Part shown: positions 19,244 to 28,049 of the stretch, in pieces
Layout of the letters: the number at the start of each line of letters is the position of its first letter
How positions within the stretch are numbered: the first letter of the stretch is position 1
Source of the DNA: a virus
IMG/VR virus record: IMGVR_UViG_3300011113_000176
Coordinates: 1 to 28,684 of that record
Direction: 5' to 3' (one strand)
Length of the DNA: 28,684 nt
The notes under the pieces: generated by a model
Told to the model about the DNA's origin: nothing
Databases searched by the model: none
What the model saw: the letters and a program-made list of their open reading frames with translations, nothing else
Translations under genes and position numbers: made by a program

Positions 19244-19727
19244 ATAGCAAAACCGAACACATCTGATGAAAGAAATTTTTACTACTGGCTTAAATGGCCG
19301 ACTTTAGTCAAAATATTTTCTGAGGGTACACAGTACAGACGGGCGCGTGGCTAAACAAGGGTGGGTGGGTTTTCGGGCATATCCGATATTTCCGACATAT
19401 ACGACATATACATTATGTCCGATTTTGTCTTGTTCGCTGGAATTATGGGGGTTTGGTATCTTCTGGGGGAATTACTAGCAATACGGCATATGTCCGATTT
19501 ATAACCTTTGCCCCAATGGTCGCCATTATCCCTTATGCCCGAATCCAAACCAGCGTGTCCGAATTGTCCAGTATGTCCGATTTGTACAGCTCATCCCGAT
19601 TTATTGTGATCTGTCCTCTTTTGTCATGATTTATCCCAGTTTGTCCTGATCTGTACCTTTTGTCCCTATTCCAGCAATCCTTGTCCAAATTGTCCGTTTT
19701 GTCCATTATGTCCTACTACTGCGAGAG

Positions 19728-19743
19728 TGTGACCGACATCACA
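19728..19743. promoter_or_regulatory. Perfect CRP/GlxR-type palindrome 1
   Basis: TGTGA-CCGACA-TCACA matches the ten fixed positions of the TGTGA-N6-TCACA operator recognised by CRP-family regulators (CRP in enterics, GlxR/Cmr-type proteins in Actinobacteria). The flanks extend the dyad to GTGTGA/TCACAC. It falls between two blocks of the TGTCC array. No CRP-family gene is visible in the window, so a host regulator would be the ligand. Confidence 0.6.
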
Positions 19744-19869
19744 CCCCAGAATCCTTGACGGAATCGAAATGTTCTGGTTGTCCCGATATGTCTGATCTGT
19801 CCAAAATGTCGGATTTTAGATCTAGGCTGTCCGAAATGTCCTGATCTGTCCGTTATGTCGGATTTGATC

Positions 19870-19885
19870 TGTGATGTGCGTCACA
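19870..19885. promoter_or_regulatory. Perfect CRP/GlxR-type palindrome 2
   Basis: TGTGA-TGTGCG-TCACA is a second exact match to TGTGA-N6-TCACA, 142 bases from the first and about 190 bases before the first plus-strand gene. Its spacer differs from that of the first site, so the two are not a simple sequence duplication. A shared operator function is the most economical explanation. Confidence 0.6.
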
Positions 19886-19920
19886 CCTGTCCAATATGTA
19901 CCAATATGTCCGATTTATCC

Positions 19921-20072
19921 GTTTGCGCTCCTGCCCCCGTTGTGGTTCACTTCTCTCATGCTCGCGCAAGCGGGCGTCACTAGGCAGGGTCGCTCCTTGC
20001 GCTTGGGGTTCTTTCCCGCCCCTGTTCTCGCGCTTGGTTCTCGCTCCCGTAGTGCTAACCGAGAGGGTCATC
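19921..20072 (+). promoter_or_regulatory. GC-rich leader before the first plus-strand gene
   Basis: Composition changes abruptly here from the AT-rich array to sequence dense in GCG/CGC words. GCGCTTGG occurs at 19999 and again at 20030, each followed within two bases by TTCT or GGTTCT. The segment ends with GAGAGGG, the ribosome-binding site for the ATG at 20073. An upstream in-frame ATG at 19896 would extend that gene into the array and is not supported by a ribosome-binding site. I see no clear promoter hexamers. Confidence 0.4.
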
Positions 20073-23509: not shown

Positions 23510-23857
23510 ATGCTCAGTAACCTAGTCGGATTATGTACCGATTATCACGACCCAGACTTGTGGTTCTCGGATACTGACGACACCAAAGGTAAGGGCAGGC
23601 CGCGCAAGCATGAGCTATCTGTACGGGTAGAGAGAACACTCAAAGCCATTGAGATATGTTCTCACTGCCCGATACAGGAGCAGTGCTTAGAACAGGGAAT
23701 GCTACCTGAGAACATTGAGAACGGCGTGTGGGGTGGTGTCATGGCAGGAGAACGCATGGCACTAAGTGGTTATCCACTCAACACTACGCTTACTATCATG
23801 GCAGTAGAGTTTGCTAAGAAGGTGAGATCATTAAAAAGCCTGACAAGCAAAGTATAA
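23510..23857 (+). CDS. whiB: WhiB-like iron-sulphur transcription regulator
   Basis: 115 aa, ATG at 23510 with GAGAGGA. The four cysteine ligands of the WhiB [4Fe-4S] cluster are visible: C9, then C50-x2-C53-x5-C59 (ICSHCPIQEQC). They are followed by the glycine-rich turn GVWGG (72-76) and a modestly basic tail (KKVRSLKSL). WhiB proteins are restricted to Actinobacteria and their phages. They bind the primary sigma factor and redirect transcription; some phage copies repress host whiB2 or protect against superinfection. A 23-residue polar insert (TDDTKGKGRPRKHELSV region) precedes C50. This is the best host-range marker in the window. Confidence 0.88.
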   Translation: MLSNLVGLCTDYHDPDLWFSDTDDTKGKGRPRKHELSVRVERTLKAIEICSHCPIQEQCLEQGMLPENIENGVWGGVMAGERMALSGYPLNTTLTIMAVEFAKKVRSLKSLTSKV

Positions 23858-24991: not shown

Positions 24992-25065
24992 GCATACTGA
25001 TAGGTGTATCTGCCTGTATGGGCATGACCTATCTGCTACTACTCATTGAGGATAAGCTAAACTAA
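24985..25065 (+). CDS. Possible single-membrane-span micropeptide, 26 aa
   Basis: ATG at 24985 inside the end of the preceding gene, stop TAA at 25063-25065. It reads MVSILIGVSACMGMTYLLLL then IEDKLN, a single hydrophobic span with a charged end. It is the last gene of the operon and overlaps the convergent sigma-like gene by four bases. A tiny holin or lysis accessory is conceivable so near the endolysin. No ribosome-binding site is visible, so it may be chance. Confidence 0.38.
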   Translation: MVSILIGVSACMGMTYLLLLIEDKLN

Positions 25066-25706
25066 TCCTCTAACACCTCAGTCGGTTGGGCTATGTCGTT
25101 ATCTTTGAACGGCTTTAGCCCACCGATTTTCTTTATAAGCTTCTTAATAATCCTTCTGTGCTTCATACGCACAGCATCTTGTGAACCAGCTTTCAAGGTT
25201 CGAGCTATCTCATCAAAGTCCATGCTCTCGCCATGCCTATAAAAAAGCAGTAATTTTTCCTCTTTTTCGAGGGTGTGGTAGGCTGTCTCGATCTCTATCA
25301 ACATGACCATAAGGTTGCCACCCTCAGATGGGGCAGATGGTTTGCCAGGGCGACCAAGGTTTAGTTTCTGTAGCACAGTCATCTCGCCTCGTATAACAGA
25401 GGGAAGTAGTGCTTCTACGATATCGGGTTCGTAATAAAATAAATCACCCTTCTCATAGCCAAGTGTCTTGGCTTTCCAATACTGACAATAATCCAACGCT
25501 TGATTACGAAGTGATCTGTAGATGAGATTCTTTGCGTCCTTCTCACCAATAGATTCCCACTCGTCCAGCTTGTTTGGGTGTTCTACGAACCACTCATACA
25601 AGGACTGACGAATATCCTCAAGCTCCACCATAGGAAACTTCTTGTGATAGTCAGAAGAAACGGCAGTTACTACGAACTCCCACTTCTTGATACGATCCCA
25701 GTCCAT
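25062..25706 (-). CDS. Sigma factor-like regulator
   Basis: 214 aa from the ATG at 25704-25706, which overlaps the metallophosphoesterase stop (TAATG); a TTG three codons earlier is possible. An N-terminal helical region (LEDIRQSLYEWFVEHPNKLD, DAKNLIYRSLRNQALDYCQ) resembles sigma region 2. The C-terminal part (LEKEEKLLLFYRHGESMDFD, EIARTLKAGSQDAVRMKHRR) resembles the region 4 helix-turn-helix that reads the -35 element. Such proteins are often annotated as sigma-like in actinobacterial phages. It could direct RNA polymerase to late promoters. A plain HTH DNA-binding protein is the alternative. Confidence 0.6.
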   Translation of the reverse strand: MDWDRIKKWEFVVTAVSSDYHKKFPMVELEDIRQSLYEWFVEHPNKLDEWESIGEKDAKNLIYRSLRNQALDYCQYWKAKTLGYEKGDLFYYEPDIVEALLPSVIRGEMTVLQKLNLGRPGKPSAPSEGGNLMVMLIEIETAYHTLEKEEKLLLFYRHGESMDFDEIARTLKAGSQDAVRMKHRRIIKKLIKKIGGLKPFKDNDIAQPTEVLED

Positions 25707-26446
25707 TATCCCCAACGCTTCCCGTGTACATAGAATGATCCGTCCCTGTTGATAGGTATAACAGACGGAGTGACTGTGTTGCCATCAACATACAGGATAC
25801 CGAAGCCTTGTTGCCAAGAGAACAAACCACCCTTGACATACAGTGCGTGTTTAGAATCCATAAGGTTGCCAACCTCTAGACCCCACACAGTATGTGCTTT
25901 GCCGCCCATGTATGACTGTGTGAAGTGACTGAGACCCAGTCGGTGTGTATGTCCGCACACAACAGAAGCTCCAGCTTTCTTGGCTAAACCAAGGGCTGTA
26001 AGCCCACCAGTATGATTGACCGAACCCTCATCTCCATGTAGCAGAATCCAACCAGGAGCTAGGTTGAAGGGCTTGCGGTGGTATGTAATACCCAACTCGT
26101 CCAACTTGAGGAATGCTTCAAGGTTCAACTCTGGTAGCCCTAGCAACCCCGGCGAGCGCAACATGACTGTGTTGAACAGCCGGTCAGTATGGTTACTGCG
26201 AATCATGTGGTCGACTTTGAGATCCTCTAAGATACGGACAGTAGTATCTCTGTCCTTGCCAATGCTACGCTCATACTCAAGAGGCGTACCTTTAGCCCAA
26301 CGACTAATCGTTTGCATGTCCATCTCATCGCCAACGGATACTACCATGTCAGGCTTGTAAGCCTTGATGAACTTGGCTAGATTATCAACAGCCTTCTTAT
26401 CATGATACGGCACCTGTAAGTCTGATACACATACTATGGTCTTCAC
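25706..26446 (-). CDS. Calcineurin-type metallophosphoesterase
   Basis: 246 aa. The GTG start at 26444-26446 forms a GTGA overlap with the upstream gene. Metal-binding motifs appear in order: SDLQVPYHD (8-16, with Gln where the usual DxH has His), GDEMD (39-43), SNHTDR (84-89), HGDEG (137-141) and GHTHR (165-169). This family hydrolyses phosphomono- or diesters; phage members are thought to act on nucleic acid ends or nucleotides. The neighbouring nucleotide-associated and primase genes fit a DNA-metabolism role. The exact substrate cannot be read from sequence. Confidence 0.82.
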   Translation of the reverse strand: MKTIVCVSDLQVPYHDKKAVDNLAKFIKAYKPDMVVSVGDEMDMQTISRWAKGTPLEYERSIGKDRDTTVRILEDLKVDHMIRSNHTDRLFNTVMLRSPGLLGLPELNLEAFLKLDELGITYHRKPFNLAPGWILLHGDEGSVNHTGGLTALGLAKKAGASVVCGHTHRLGLSHFTQSYMGGKAHTVWGLEVGNLMDSKHALYVKGGLFSWQQGFGILYVDGNTVTPSVIPINRDGSFYVHGKRWG

Positions 26447-26835
26447 TTATCCCACTTTCCTCGGAGAACCAGGAGCCCAATGATGGCATAGTTGGCCATG
26501 TCCTTAAAAGAATCCTCAATAGATTCATGCTTAGGCTGAAAGCCCTTGGTATCTTTCATGTATTCATATAGATTATTGATACGGGCCAACTTGTCATACA
26601 TTCGAACACGCAGTCCATTAAGTGCACCGCCGGGTGCAGCGGAAATGTTTAGTGGCCCATAATCTTTATGCTTACTAAGAAGCAACTCTTCTAGTTCTCT
26701 GAAAGTAGCTCTGACAGAACGTTCGAAGTCAGTAGTGGGAATCGTAACGTTACGAGCAGGTAATTCGTGCCACGTTTTATACCATTCGTCTCTATCTGCA
26801 GGCCGTTCTTTCTTAGGTAGGTTATAATCTGCCAT
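26443..26835 (-). CDS. Nucleotide modification-associated domain 1 (DUF1599/Nmad1) protein
   Basis: 130 aa, ATG at 26835 after GAGGAGAT. The core matches DUF1599: LEELLLSKHKDYGPLNIS, GGALNGLRVRMYDKLARINN, and the C-terminal IEDSFKDMANYAIIGLLVLR. The family is all-alpha, possibly related to MazG/dUTPase-like nucleotide-binding proteins, and has been linked by gene context to phage DNA base modification. No modifying enzyme (for example a deoxynucleotide hydroxymethylase) is visible in the window, so modification of this phage's DNA is only possible. The reaction is not established. Confidence 0.75.
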   Translation of the reverse strand: MADYNLPKKERPADRDEWYKTWHELPARNVTIPTTDFERSVRATFRELEELLLSKHKDYGPLNISAAPGGALNGLRVRMYDKLARINNLYEYMKDTKGFQPKHESIEDSFKDMANYAIIGLLVLRGKWDK

Positions 26836-26841
26836 ATCTCC

Positions 26842-27210
26842 TCATCTTCCATCTTCTTTATGTTCATCTAATATATCCTTCAACGCTTCGTCAATGTTCT
26901 TCATGGCCCTGAATATCATCTTTTCCTGGAAGAACTGCTCCACATAATCCGGCTCAGTATCCGACAAGTAGAGTGTCATATACGCTGACTCTGCCATGTC
27001 TTTGATGAGCTGCATATCTTTGCGTTTAGCAGCTACAAATATTTCTCTAAGTAATGTACCCAACTTGAGAGAGTAATCACCAGGCAAACGAAGCTGTGGT
27101 TCAAACTTACCCGGCAGTTCTTCGGCTGCCCAGAAGTGGTCAATCGCATCGAATGCGCTATCAAATATTTCACCGCAGTCGGCACATTCATTCATGTTAA
27201 TTTCATCCAT
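26842..27210 (-). CDS. Small protein with C2-H zinc motif
   Basis: 122 aa if it starts at the ATG at 27208-27210, which overlaps the primase stop (ATGGATGA). A GTG at 27261 would add 17 residues and overlap more of the primase. The N-terminus holds NECADCGEIFDSAFDAIDHF, a CxxC followed by a histidine, as in C2H2-like fingers. The rest is helical and acidic (GTLLREIFVAAKRKDMQLIK; EQFFQEKMIFRAMKNIDEAL). It may bind the primase or DNA, judged only from the operon. No family name known to me. Confidence 0.6.
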   Translation of the reverse strand: MDEINMNECADCGEIFDSAFDAIDHFWAAEELPGKFEPQLRLPGDYSLKLGTLLREIFVAAKRKDMQLIKDMAESAYMTLYLSDTEPDYVEQFFQEKMIFRAMKNIDEALKDILDEHKEDGR

Positions 27211-27826
27211 TAAGTTTGGCTCTATCTCTAATGAATCCTGATCCGAATTTTGTATATGCACTGTTTACATCTTCCCCTTCCGGCAATTGTATAATGGTAA
27301 CTGGTAGCTCCCTTGCAAGACCACGTGCGAATTCTGTGCCTGGTTGATCACCATCGGCGAATACATATACACGCTCGAAGTCTGCGAGCATTCTTGTGTA
27401 GTGTTTCTTCCAACTGTTAGCACCAGGAACACCGATGCAAGGAATGCCAACGCAAGAAGACAGAGTGATCGTATCAAGTTCGCCTTCGCAGACTCCAATA
27501 TAATCACCCGCTTTTTCTATGTCCATAACATTGTACATGTGCGTTTCAGCTCCGGTCAAACCCATGTACTTAGGTTCAACAGCAGGGTTAAGAGAACGAA
27601 ACCGTATATCGACAACACCAGACTTAGTAATATAAGGGATAGCAAGCCTACCAATATACGCTTCATGGCCAGGCTCAGGCTCCACGACTACGCCTAATCG
27701 CGCCAGCCGTGCTACTTCCTGAGTTATGCCCCTGTTTTTTAGGTAGTCGTATGCCTGAGAGATATGCTCCGCGTACCTCTCCGCTGCCATCCCCAGTAAT
27801 TCTTTCTGAGAACTTAACTGCTTCAT
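27203..27826 (-). CDS. DNA primase, Toprim catalytic part
   Basis: 207 aa, ATG at 27826 with AGAGGGA upstream. It starts with a helical segment (ISQAYDYLKNRGITQEVARL), then a beta region (AYIGRLAIPYITKSGVVDIR). The Toprim centre is VCEGELDTI with catalytic Glu114, followed by VPGANSW and the metal-binding DGD at 158-160 (VYVFADGDQPG). It should make RNA primers. The zinc-binding domain that normally precedes it is in a separate overlapping frame upstream, giving a two-part primase. It lacks a helicase domain. Confidence 0.82.
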   Translation of the reverse strand: MKQLSSQKELLGMAAERYAEHISQAYDYLKNRGITQEVARLARLGVVVEPEPGHEAYIGRLAIPYITKSGVVDIRFRSLNPAVEPKYMGLTGAETHMYNVMDIEKAGDYIGVCEGELDTITLSSCVGIPCIGVPGANSWKKHYTRMLADFERVYVFADGDQPGTEFARGLARELPVTIIQLPEGEDVNSAYTKFGSGFIRDRAKLNG

Positions 27827-28049
27827 AGATACTTAGTCCCTCTTGTCTTCCAATAATTTGTAAACTGTTTCCAGATATTCCACACGCGAAACACATAAAT
27901 ATTTGCCGGTCGAGGTTTGCTGTACCTGACTGGTGTGTATCGTCATGGAACGGACACTTGAGATTGACCTGCCCAGATGATCTTTTAATACTTGCTCCAT
28001 AATGCTCCAATACTAATTTGATAGATGGCAGGTCACTCAAACAAATCAC
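27675..28049 (-). CDS. DNA primase, CHC2 zinc-binding part
   Basis: 124 aa as annotated from a GTG at 28049; a TTG three codons later (SDLPSIKLVLEHYG) is also possible. The zinc motif is KCPFHDDTHQS (C32, H35) with FMCFACG (C53, C56), the primase template-recognition module, followed by SLQIIGRQEGLSIYEAVKFS. It overlaps the Toprim gene by 152 bases in the frame one base back. The last roughly 40 residues (GAYLSGIRLPKKQGHNSGSS) look like out-of-frame translation of the Toprim gene, so the functional domain probably ends near residue 90. A +1 frameshift would fuse the two. Confidence 0.75.
   Translation of the reverse strand: MICLSDLPSIKLVLEHYGASIKRSSGQVNLKCPFHDDTHQSGTANLDRQIFMCFACGISGNSLQIIGRQEGLSIYEAVKFSERITGDGSGEVRGAYLSGIRLPKKQGHNSGSSTAGAIRRSRGA

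Follow-up and report, generated by a model that had tools for sequence, protein, structure and literature searches.

The window analysed here, a linear viral contig of 28,684 bp that is a fragment, includes an array of TGTCC copies that very probably lies at the chromosome end of the virus, a location assigned by homology. The strongest clue is that the region is, by alignment, homologous to the direct-terminal-repeat junction of cultured Streptomyces podoviruses, a relationship absent from an earlier note on this DNA. That note had described the array and proposed an origin, a regulator array or primase start sites as its function; the observation is confirmed, while the reading is shifted to a chromosome-end array. 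The features discussed below are listed in Table 1.

Table 1. Features of the array region and of the adjacent terminase gene (positions are those of the window).
Feature	Position	Strand	Remarks
Terminase large subunit, 619 aa	17220..19079	-	First gene of the leftward operon; phrog_38, E 7e-66
Terminase residues 1-63, small-terminase-like helix-turn-helix	18891..19079	-	Candidate junction reader; profile matches weak but consistent
TCTGATGAAAGAAATT	19262..19277	.	Degenerate counterpart of the CRP-type site found to the left of the core in the 73 other relatives
Conserved core ACTTTAGTCAAAATATTTTCTGAGGGTACA	19301..19330	+	Shared with relatives, aligned to Streptomyces BF phages
Predicted left edge of direct terminal repeat	~19327-19330	+	From BF phage alignment
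Second conserved block CTAAACAAGGGTGGGTGGG	19351..19370	+	Equivalent to TTAACAA..GGGGTCG in relatives and to TTTAACAACCCCCGGGTCG in BF phages
TGTCC array	19380..19940	+	19 exact copies, spaced mostly 9, 10, 19 or 30 bp
Densest run, four TGTCC	19682..19717	+	Exact 9-bp steps
CRP/GlxR-type palindrome TGTGACCGACATCACA in array	19728..19743	.	Perfect, TGTGAN6TCACA
CRP/GlxR-type palindrome TGTGATGTGCGTCACA in array	19870..19885	.	Perfect, TGTGAN6TCACA

Genome context and relatives

To the left of the array is a leftward operon in which the terminase gene is followed by structural genes, including that of a 1597-aa protein, and to the right is a short early operon that reads rightward; beyond it, a leftward block includes a sigma factor, a metallophosphoesterase, and a split CHC2/Toprim primase. 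The primase is present as two overlapping ORFs, a CHC2-type zinc-finger part and a Toprim part (nucleotides 27203-28049), and is annotated likewise in Immanuel3. The presence of a WhiB gene (nucleotides 23510-23857) points to actinobacterial hosts, and the virus is predicted to be a freshwater actinobacterial phage, a podovirus of the T7 style.

The terminase is encoded by hundreds of contigs in the viral collection. Among cultured phages, the relatives are LanE43-AprE7 and LanE43-AprF5 of Planktophila (OX376640/OX376641, terminase 46% identical) and the Streptomyces cluster BF podoviruses (43% identical). The window is mosaic, as the sigma factor, the primase and the MazG-like gene (25062-28049) have 61-73% identity to those of Planktophila phage F5, against 46% for the terminase; the terminase and capsid are in turn 74-94% identical to those of other freshwater phages. 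A search for closer relatives using the early genes of the window as anchors found none, and DNA polymerase A (Pfam PF00476) was not found in 13 relatives.

The TGTCC array

Exact TGTCC is found 19 times in the 561 bp between nucleotides 19380 and 19940, compared with a mean of 2.3 and a maximum of 8 in 1000 dinucleotide-preserving shuffles, and copies with one mismatch number 39 where 18.4 are expected (maximum 28 of 500), which agrees with the initial description of more than twenty exact or one-base-variant copies at 9-10 bp. As also described, all copies are on one strand: every TGTCC is on the + strand and the inverted copy GGACA is absent from nucleotides 19380-19940. This is the sole TGTCC cluster in the window, with 19 copies per 560 bp and no more than 5 per 560 bp elsewhere on both strands. 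The region has no credible ORF and lies between divergent operons, two further statements that stand, and its repeated sites are of a size suited to a protein. The consensus derived from the exact copies is (A/T)TGTCC(G/A)(A)(T/A)T.

The periodicity of 9-10 bp, which the earlier note proposed to compare with dinucleotide shuffles, was recovered. Self-matches of 4-mers at lag 9 number 27 versus 3.2 expected (z 10.1), with further excesses at lags 18 and 19 (z 7.2 and 7.6, respectively), 30 (z 8.0), and 10 (z 3.3). Two of the finer claims needed correction. The "four exact 9-mers" of the densest run are exact as far as TGTCC and the 9-bp steps are concerned, but the 9-mers differ in their tails. 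The spacing is indeed near-helical, but the best period for near pairs is 9.7 bp rather than 10.5 bp, so that successive copies would rotate by about 30 degrees per step and one face of the helix is not strictly kept; strict 10.5-bp helical phasing of the array was consequently dropped. A CRISPR array, which the first reading had also set aside, is ruled out by the 5-bp core and the 9-10 bp pitch, as opposed to identical 20-40 bp repeats with unique spacers. In scans of the collection, DNA coding for collagen-like Gly-X-Y repeats often gave rise to false 9-bp TGTCC arrays; nucleotides 13-970 of the window consist of such 9-bp periodic DNA.

The conserved core and the chromosome ends of Streptomyces phages

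Directly to the left of the array is a core of about 70 bp with the structure, roughly, of ACTTTAGnAAATATTTATTTGGGGAGTA, a gap of about 23 bp, and then TTAACAA..GGGGGTCG. Counting the window, 74 distinct sequences have this core upstream of terminase. A CRP-type slot (decayed in the window), an AT-rich block, a GGG.. edge, and TTAACAA..GGGTCG can be aligned in the window, the freshwater relatives and the BF phages, and because their junctions align the cores are considered homologous. Contig ends also cluster at the core; this was considered as proof of physical ends and rejected, as it is suggestive but assembly breaks at a conserved sequence would look alike.

The BF phages have podovirus morphology and linear genomes with direct terminal repeats, of 253 bp in a group including FlowerPower (PMC9753666) and of 265 bp in another report (PMC13097060). 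The exact terminal repeats that we measured were 276 bp for Manuel, 264 bp for Kumquat, 263 bp for Stella, 275 bp for Immanuel3, and 253 bp for FlowerPower, and in these five phages the repeat begins at the counterpart of the core (..GGGGACT/CACTCC.., where the slash marks the start). The Abafar record, which shows a 396-bp overlap and shifted edges, was left out of the edge determination. At these junctions the most enriched hexamer is TGTCCG, with 38 occurrences versus 2.3 expected, followed by ATGTCC. Successive TGTCCG copies on the same strand are separated by 7-10 bp in 20 cases and by 19-20 bp in 6, with no cases between 11 and 18 bp, and along complete BF genomes the motif peaks at both ends and nowhere else, with 16-17 copies per 800 bp compared with at most 7-8 in other places. 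It is the combination of a homologous core and TGTCCG with like spacing at the BF ends that leads us to regard the array as a feature of the chromosome end, or concatemer junction.

The resemblance to the junctions of these Beephvirinae (Manuel, Kumquat, Stella, Immanuel3, and FlowerPower) extends to the gene order, with terminase and early genes flanking the junction on opposite sides, and to a motif, TGTCCG, that is spaced at 9-10 and 19 bp and confined to the ends. There are also three differences: the BF copies are fewer per cluster and occur in both orientations, even on one side of the core, while those of the window are on one strand; the CRP-type site is to the left of the core in BF phages but within the array in the window; and the terminal repeat is present in the BF records but only predicted in the window. 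The comparison with relatives that had been proposed at the outset found the core, motif and spacing in common with BF chromosome ends and an array that is patchy among freshwater relatives. The literature searched offered no description of the array in BF phages.

A possible role in end maturation and packaging

The chances are about even that the array consists of tandem sites for a DNA-binding protein that takes part in end processing and packaging. According to this model the linear DNA would carry a short direct terminal repeat with its left edge at the conserved core, predicted at about nucleotide 19330, and the TGTCC copies would occupy the predicted repeat and continue for a few hundred bp in the direction of the early genes. 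Every (A/T)TGTCCG(A) would be one contact site, the protein would load cooperatively along the array, and the bound array would mark the junction as the place for DNA cutting, duplication of the repeat, and packaging. For the window virus we infer the repeat at this place, the identity of the binder, and the effect of binding.

The leading candidate for the binder is the helix-turn-helix (HTH) fused N-terminally to the large terminase, which would multimerise in the manner of small-terminase rings. It was chosen because it is small-terminase-like, because the annotations of FlowerPower and Immanuel3 list no separate small-terminase gene, and because the HTHs in small-terminase rings are about one helical turn apart (PMC4737164). 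The terminase N-terminus of the window matches the small-terminase profile phrog_4044 with an E value of 5e-4, that of Manuel matches phrog_4102 (E 8.5e-5) as well as phrog_1482, and the two align with each other (E 9e-12). Helices are predicted at residues 5-18, 23-29, 34-43, and 45-53, an HTH-like arrangement that is confident only for about residues 1-50, and, of the phages examined, the freshwater relatives and the Streptomyces BF phages have a fused small-terminase-like HTH as well. Foldseek returned no significant match for the terminase N-terminus, a profile search of solved structures no meaningful match, and a fold comparison against a list without canonical small terminases only weak HTH matches, the best with Z 4.8 (2ao9). 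The HTH is nearly invariant, with Y37-R42 identical in 22 sequences, many of which have, in place of TGTCC arrays, 8-11 bp arrays of other units. Its assignment as the binder of the array is therefore tentative and somewhat doubtful. Further points against the model as a whole are the period of 9.7 rather than 10.5 bp, the patchy occurrence of TGTCC arrays on the terminase tree, their low copy number at the corresponding region of Planktophila phage F5, and the existence of nearly identical arrays in phages (L141, L128, and L140) without recognisable relation to the window. We consider it unlikely that the fused HTH reads the near-helical array by a sequence-specific, "nucleosome-like" wrapping of DNA around the terminase and that the array spread as an exchangeable cassette.

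Two known systems invite comparison. In phage T7, CCTAAAG recurs every 13 bp within and next to the 160-bp terminal repeat, forming the arrays known as SRL and SRR; we know of no settled function for them, and nothing on SRL/SRR was found in the literature searched. They resemble the present array in having a short unit on one strand at regular spacing, upstream of early genes. The T7 copies lie within and next to a direct terminal repeat; in the window, spacing and strand match this anatomy, while the place relative to the predicted terminal repeat is assigned by homology. The T7 unit has no sequence homology to TGTCCG, which is spaced at 9-10 bp here, and T7 has its own RNA polymerase. If the chromosome-end reading is correct, the array would be a second case beside T7, unrelated in sequence, of short-repeat arrays at terminal repeats. 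The pac site of SPP1/SF6 and its small-terminase rings are similar in that direct repeats lie near the packaging start and HTHs are about one DNA turn apart (PMC4737164). They differ in that SPP1 and SF6 package by the headful mechanism and have a small terminase that is a separate protein with little sequence specificity, while in the present phages the HTH forms part of the large terminase and, in the cultured relatives, fixed terminal repeats make up the ends.

How small terminases choose viral DNA has been described as open and disputed, chiefly because the known ones bind weakly and with little specificity (PMC9611059). The phages described here have a strong, conserved repeated motif at the ends of widespread freshwater actinophages and of culturable Streptomyces phages, together with a terminase that has its own HTH. 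Since the motif sits at the ends of a culturable BF phage with an HTH-bearing terminase, a direct test would be feasible in such a phage.

Replication, regulation, and other binding proteins

The main rival is an origin, proposed from the start, in which the TGTCC copies would be iterons for an initiator beside a melting AT-rich core, helped by host DnaA. It owes this position to the clustering of DnaA boxes in the same region of the relatives, although we regard it as unlikely. The boxes, TT(A/G/T)TCCACA, number 68 in the 72.8 kb around the core versus 7 in 589 kb elsewhere, an enrichment of about 78-fold, and are present near the core in 32 of the 74 sequences. They are located at about -350 or +110 from the core (for instance in L084, L054, L032, and L005), often as TGTGGATAA pairs 12 bp apart. 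A DnaA-dependent phage origin at the terminal region of the relatives is therefore possible, and replication may also start here. Other points in its favor are the AT-rich core, the TTGTCC that the array unit has in common with the actinobacterial DnaA box TTGTCCACA, a single near-match to that box in the window (TTGTCCAAA, one mismatch), and the location of the unrelated TGTCCCA arrays of L156, L158, and L212 beside a PrimPol/helicase gene. On the other hand, the exact box is absent from the window region and from the BF junctions, the array units lack its CACA half, and the BF copies are in mixed orientation. No initiator gene is recognised beside the array, where most early genes have no known family. 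Cumulative GC skew, recommended initially as a way to locate the origin, follows the gene strand and marks no origin; in five relatives its extremes follow the gene strand and not the core. DnaA-dependent iteron origins of plasmids and phage-plasmids likewise have short direct repeats beside an AT-rich segment, and the relatives have the DnaA boxes, but the window has neither an exact box nor a recognised initiator, and its skew pattern is wrong.

A cooperative array for a transcription regulator controlling the divergent early and late promoters, also suggested early on, is possible but quite unlikely, even though the operons were confirmed to diverge from the two sides of the array. To the left of the core, 69 of the 74 sequences have a CRP/GlxR-type site with no more than one mismatch and 4 more have one with two mismatches, against a background of 3 in 416 kb; only the window, which lost the ancestral site, has none at this place, and two perfect ones lie within its array. 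In relatives, GGACA outnumbers TGTCC by 61 to 10 on the left side of the core, with many copies between the CRP site and the core. Against this reading, the arrays span hundreds of bp, crossing the terminal repeat and continuing past it, their copies point both ways in BF phages, and no regulator gene co-distributes with the array in the genomes compared. The CRP/GlxR-type sites themselves suggest host catabolite-type control of the phage promoters. The palindromes are located about 40-110 bp to the left of the core in L003-L101, and left of the core in BF phages too. Helical phasing of the distance between CRP site and core, which by eye appeared to follow 10.5-bp steps, was rejected, since there is only a weak preference for about 10 bp (R 0.44). 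Packaging, replication, and regulation could coexist in one terminal control region.

Another version keeps the location at the end but assigns the array to a different protein, nucleoid-like or involved in recombination, so that the array would protect or condense the end or promote concatemer formation. The location at the end in relatives speaks for it, and since the terminase HTH is invariant while the array units of the relatives differ, another, more variable protein may be the binder; the HTH may then read the invariant core and the other protein the array. We give this version a low probability: no candidate protein was identified, and the evidence does not separate it from binding by the terminase. 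Strand-specific primase start sites, as once proposed, or an RNA signal such as a rut site are hardly tenable, because the Streptomyces homologues occur in both orientations on one side of the core, which is incompatible with a strand-specific signal, although the window copies are all on one strand, the phage has a split CHC2/Toprim primase, and a bidirectional origin would fit the inverted GGACA copies that relatives have to the left of the core.

Arrays in freshwater relatives and other phages

Significant 8-11 bp periodicity was detected to the right of the core in 35 of 65 of the core-bearing sequences and in none of 69 terminase controls. The repeated unit of these arrays varies among relatives, and many are without TGTCC. 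Arrays of the TGTC type are patchy on the terminase tree, where their distribution requires at least 3-4 changes: four in all, of which well-supported branches force three. L003, the closest relative keeping both terminase and junction (terminase 81% identical), has no such array; the sequence of L001, closer still (90%), stops before the junction; and Planktophila phage F5 has few TGTCC copies at the equivalent region. A general TGYCC motif unifying the differing arrays was considered and rejected, as TGCCC is 5.5-fold enriched but so are G/C-rich words in general. A search for similar arrays in host genomes was uninformative, with matches mostly in Planctomycetes, Lentisphaerae, Chlamydiae, and others and hardly any in actinobacteria.

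Nearly the same ATGTCCGAT arrays are present in intergenic regions of L141, L128, and L140, which have no recognisable homologues of the window, and a shared host factor or an exchanged cassette is a possible reason for this near identity in unrelated phages. The arrays of L141 and L128 adjoin an hsp20-like gene. Arrays of TGTCCCA(A/G)TT, the type found beside the PrimPol/helicase gene in L156, L158, and L212, are common to these three and to L201, L178, L170, L137, and L125, many with the spacing 10, 20, 15, 10, 10, 9. In L156 and L158, those examined, they are accompanied by inverted GGACA copies and a short hairpin.
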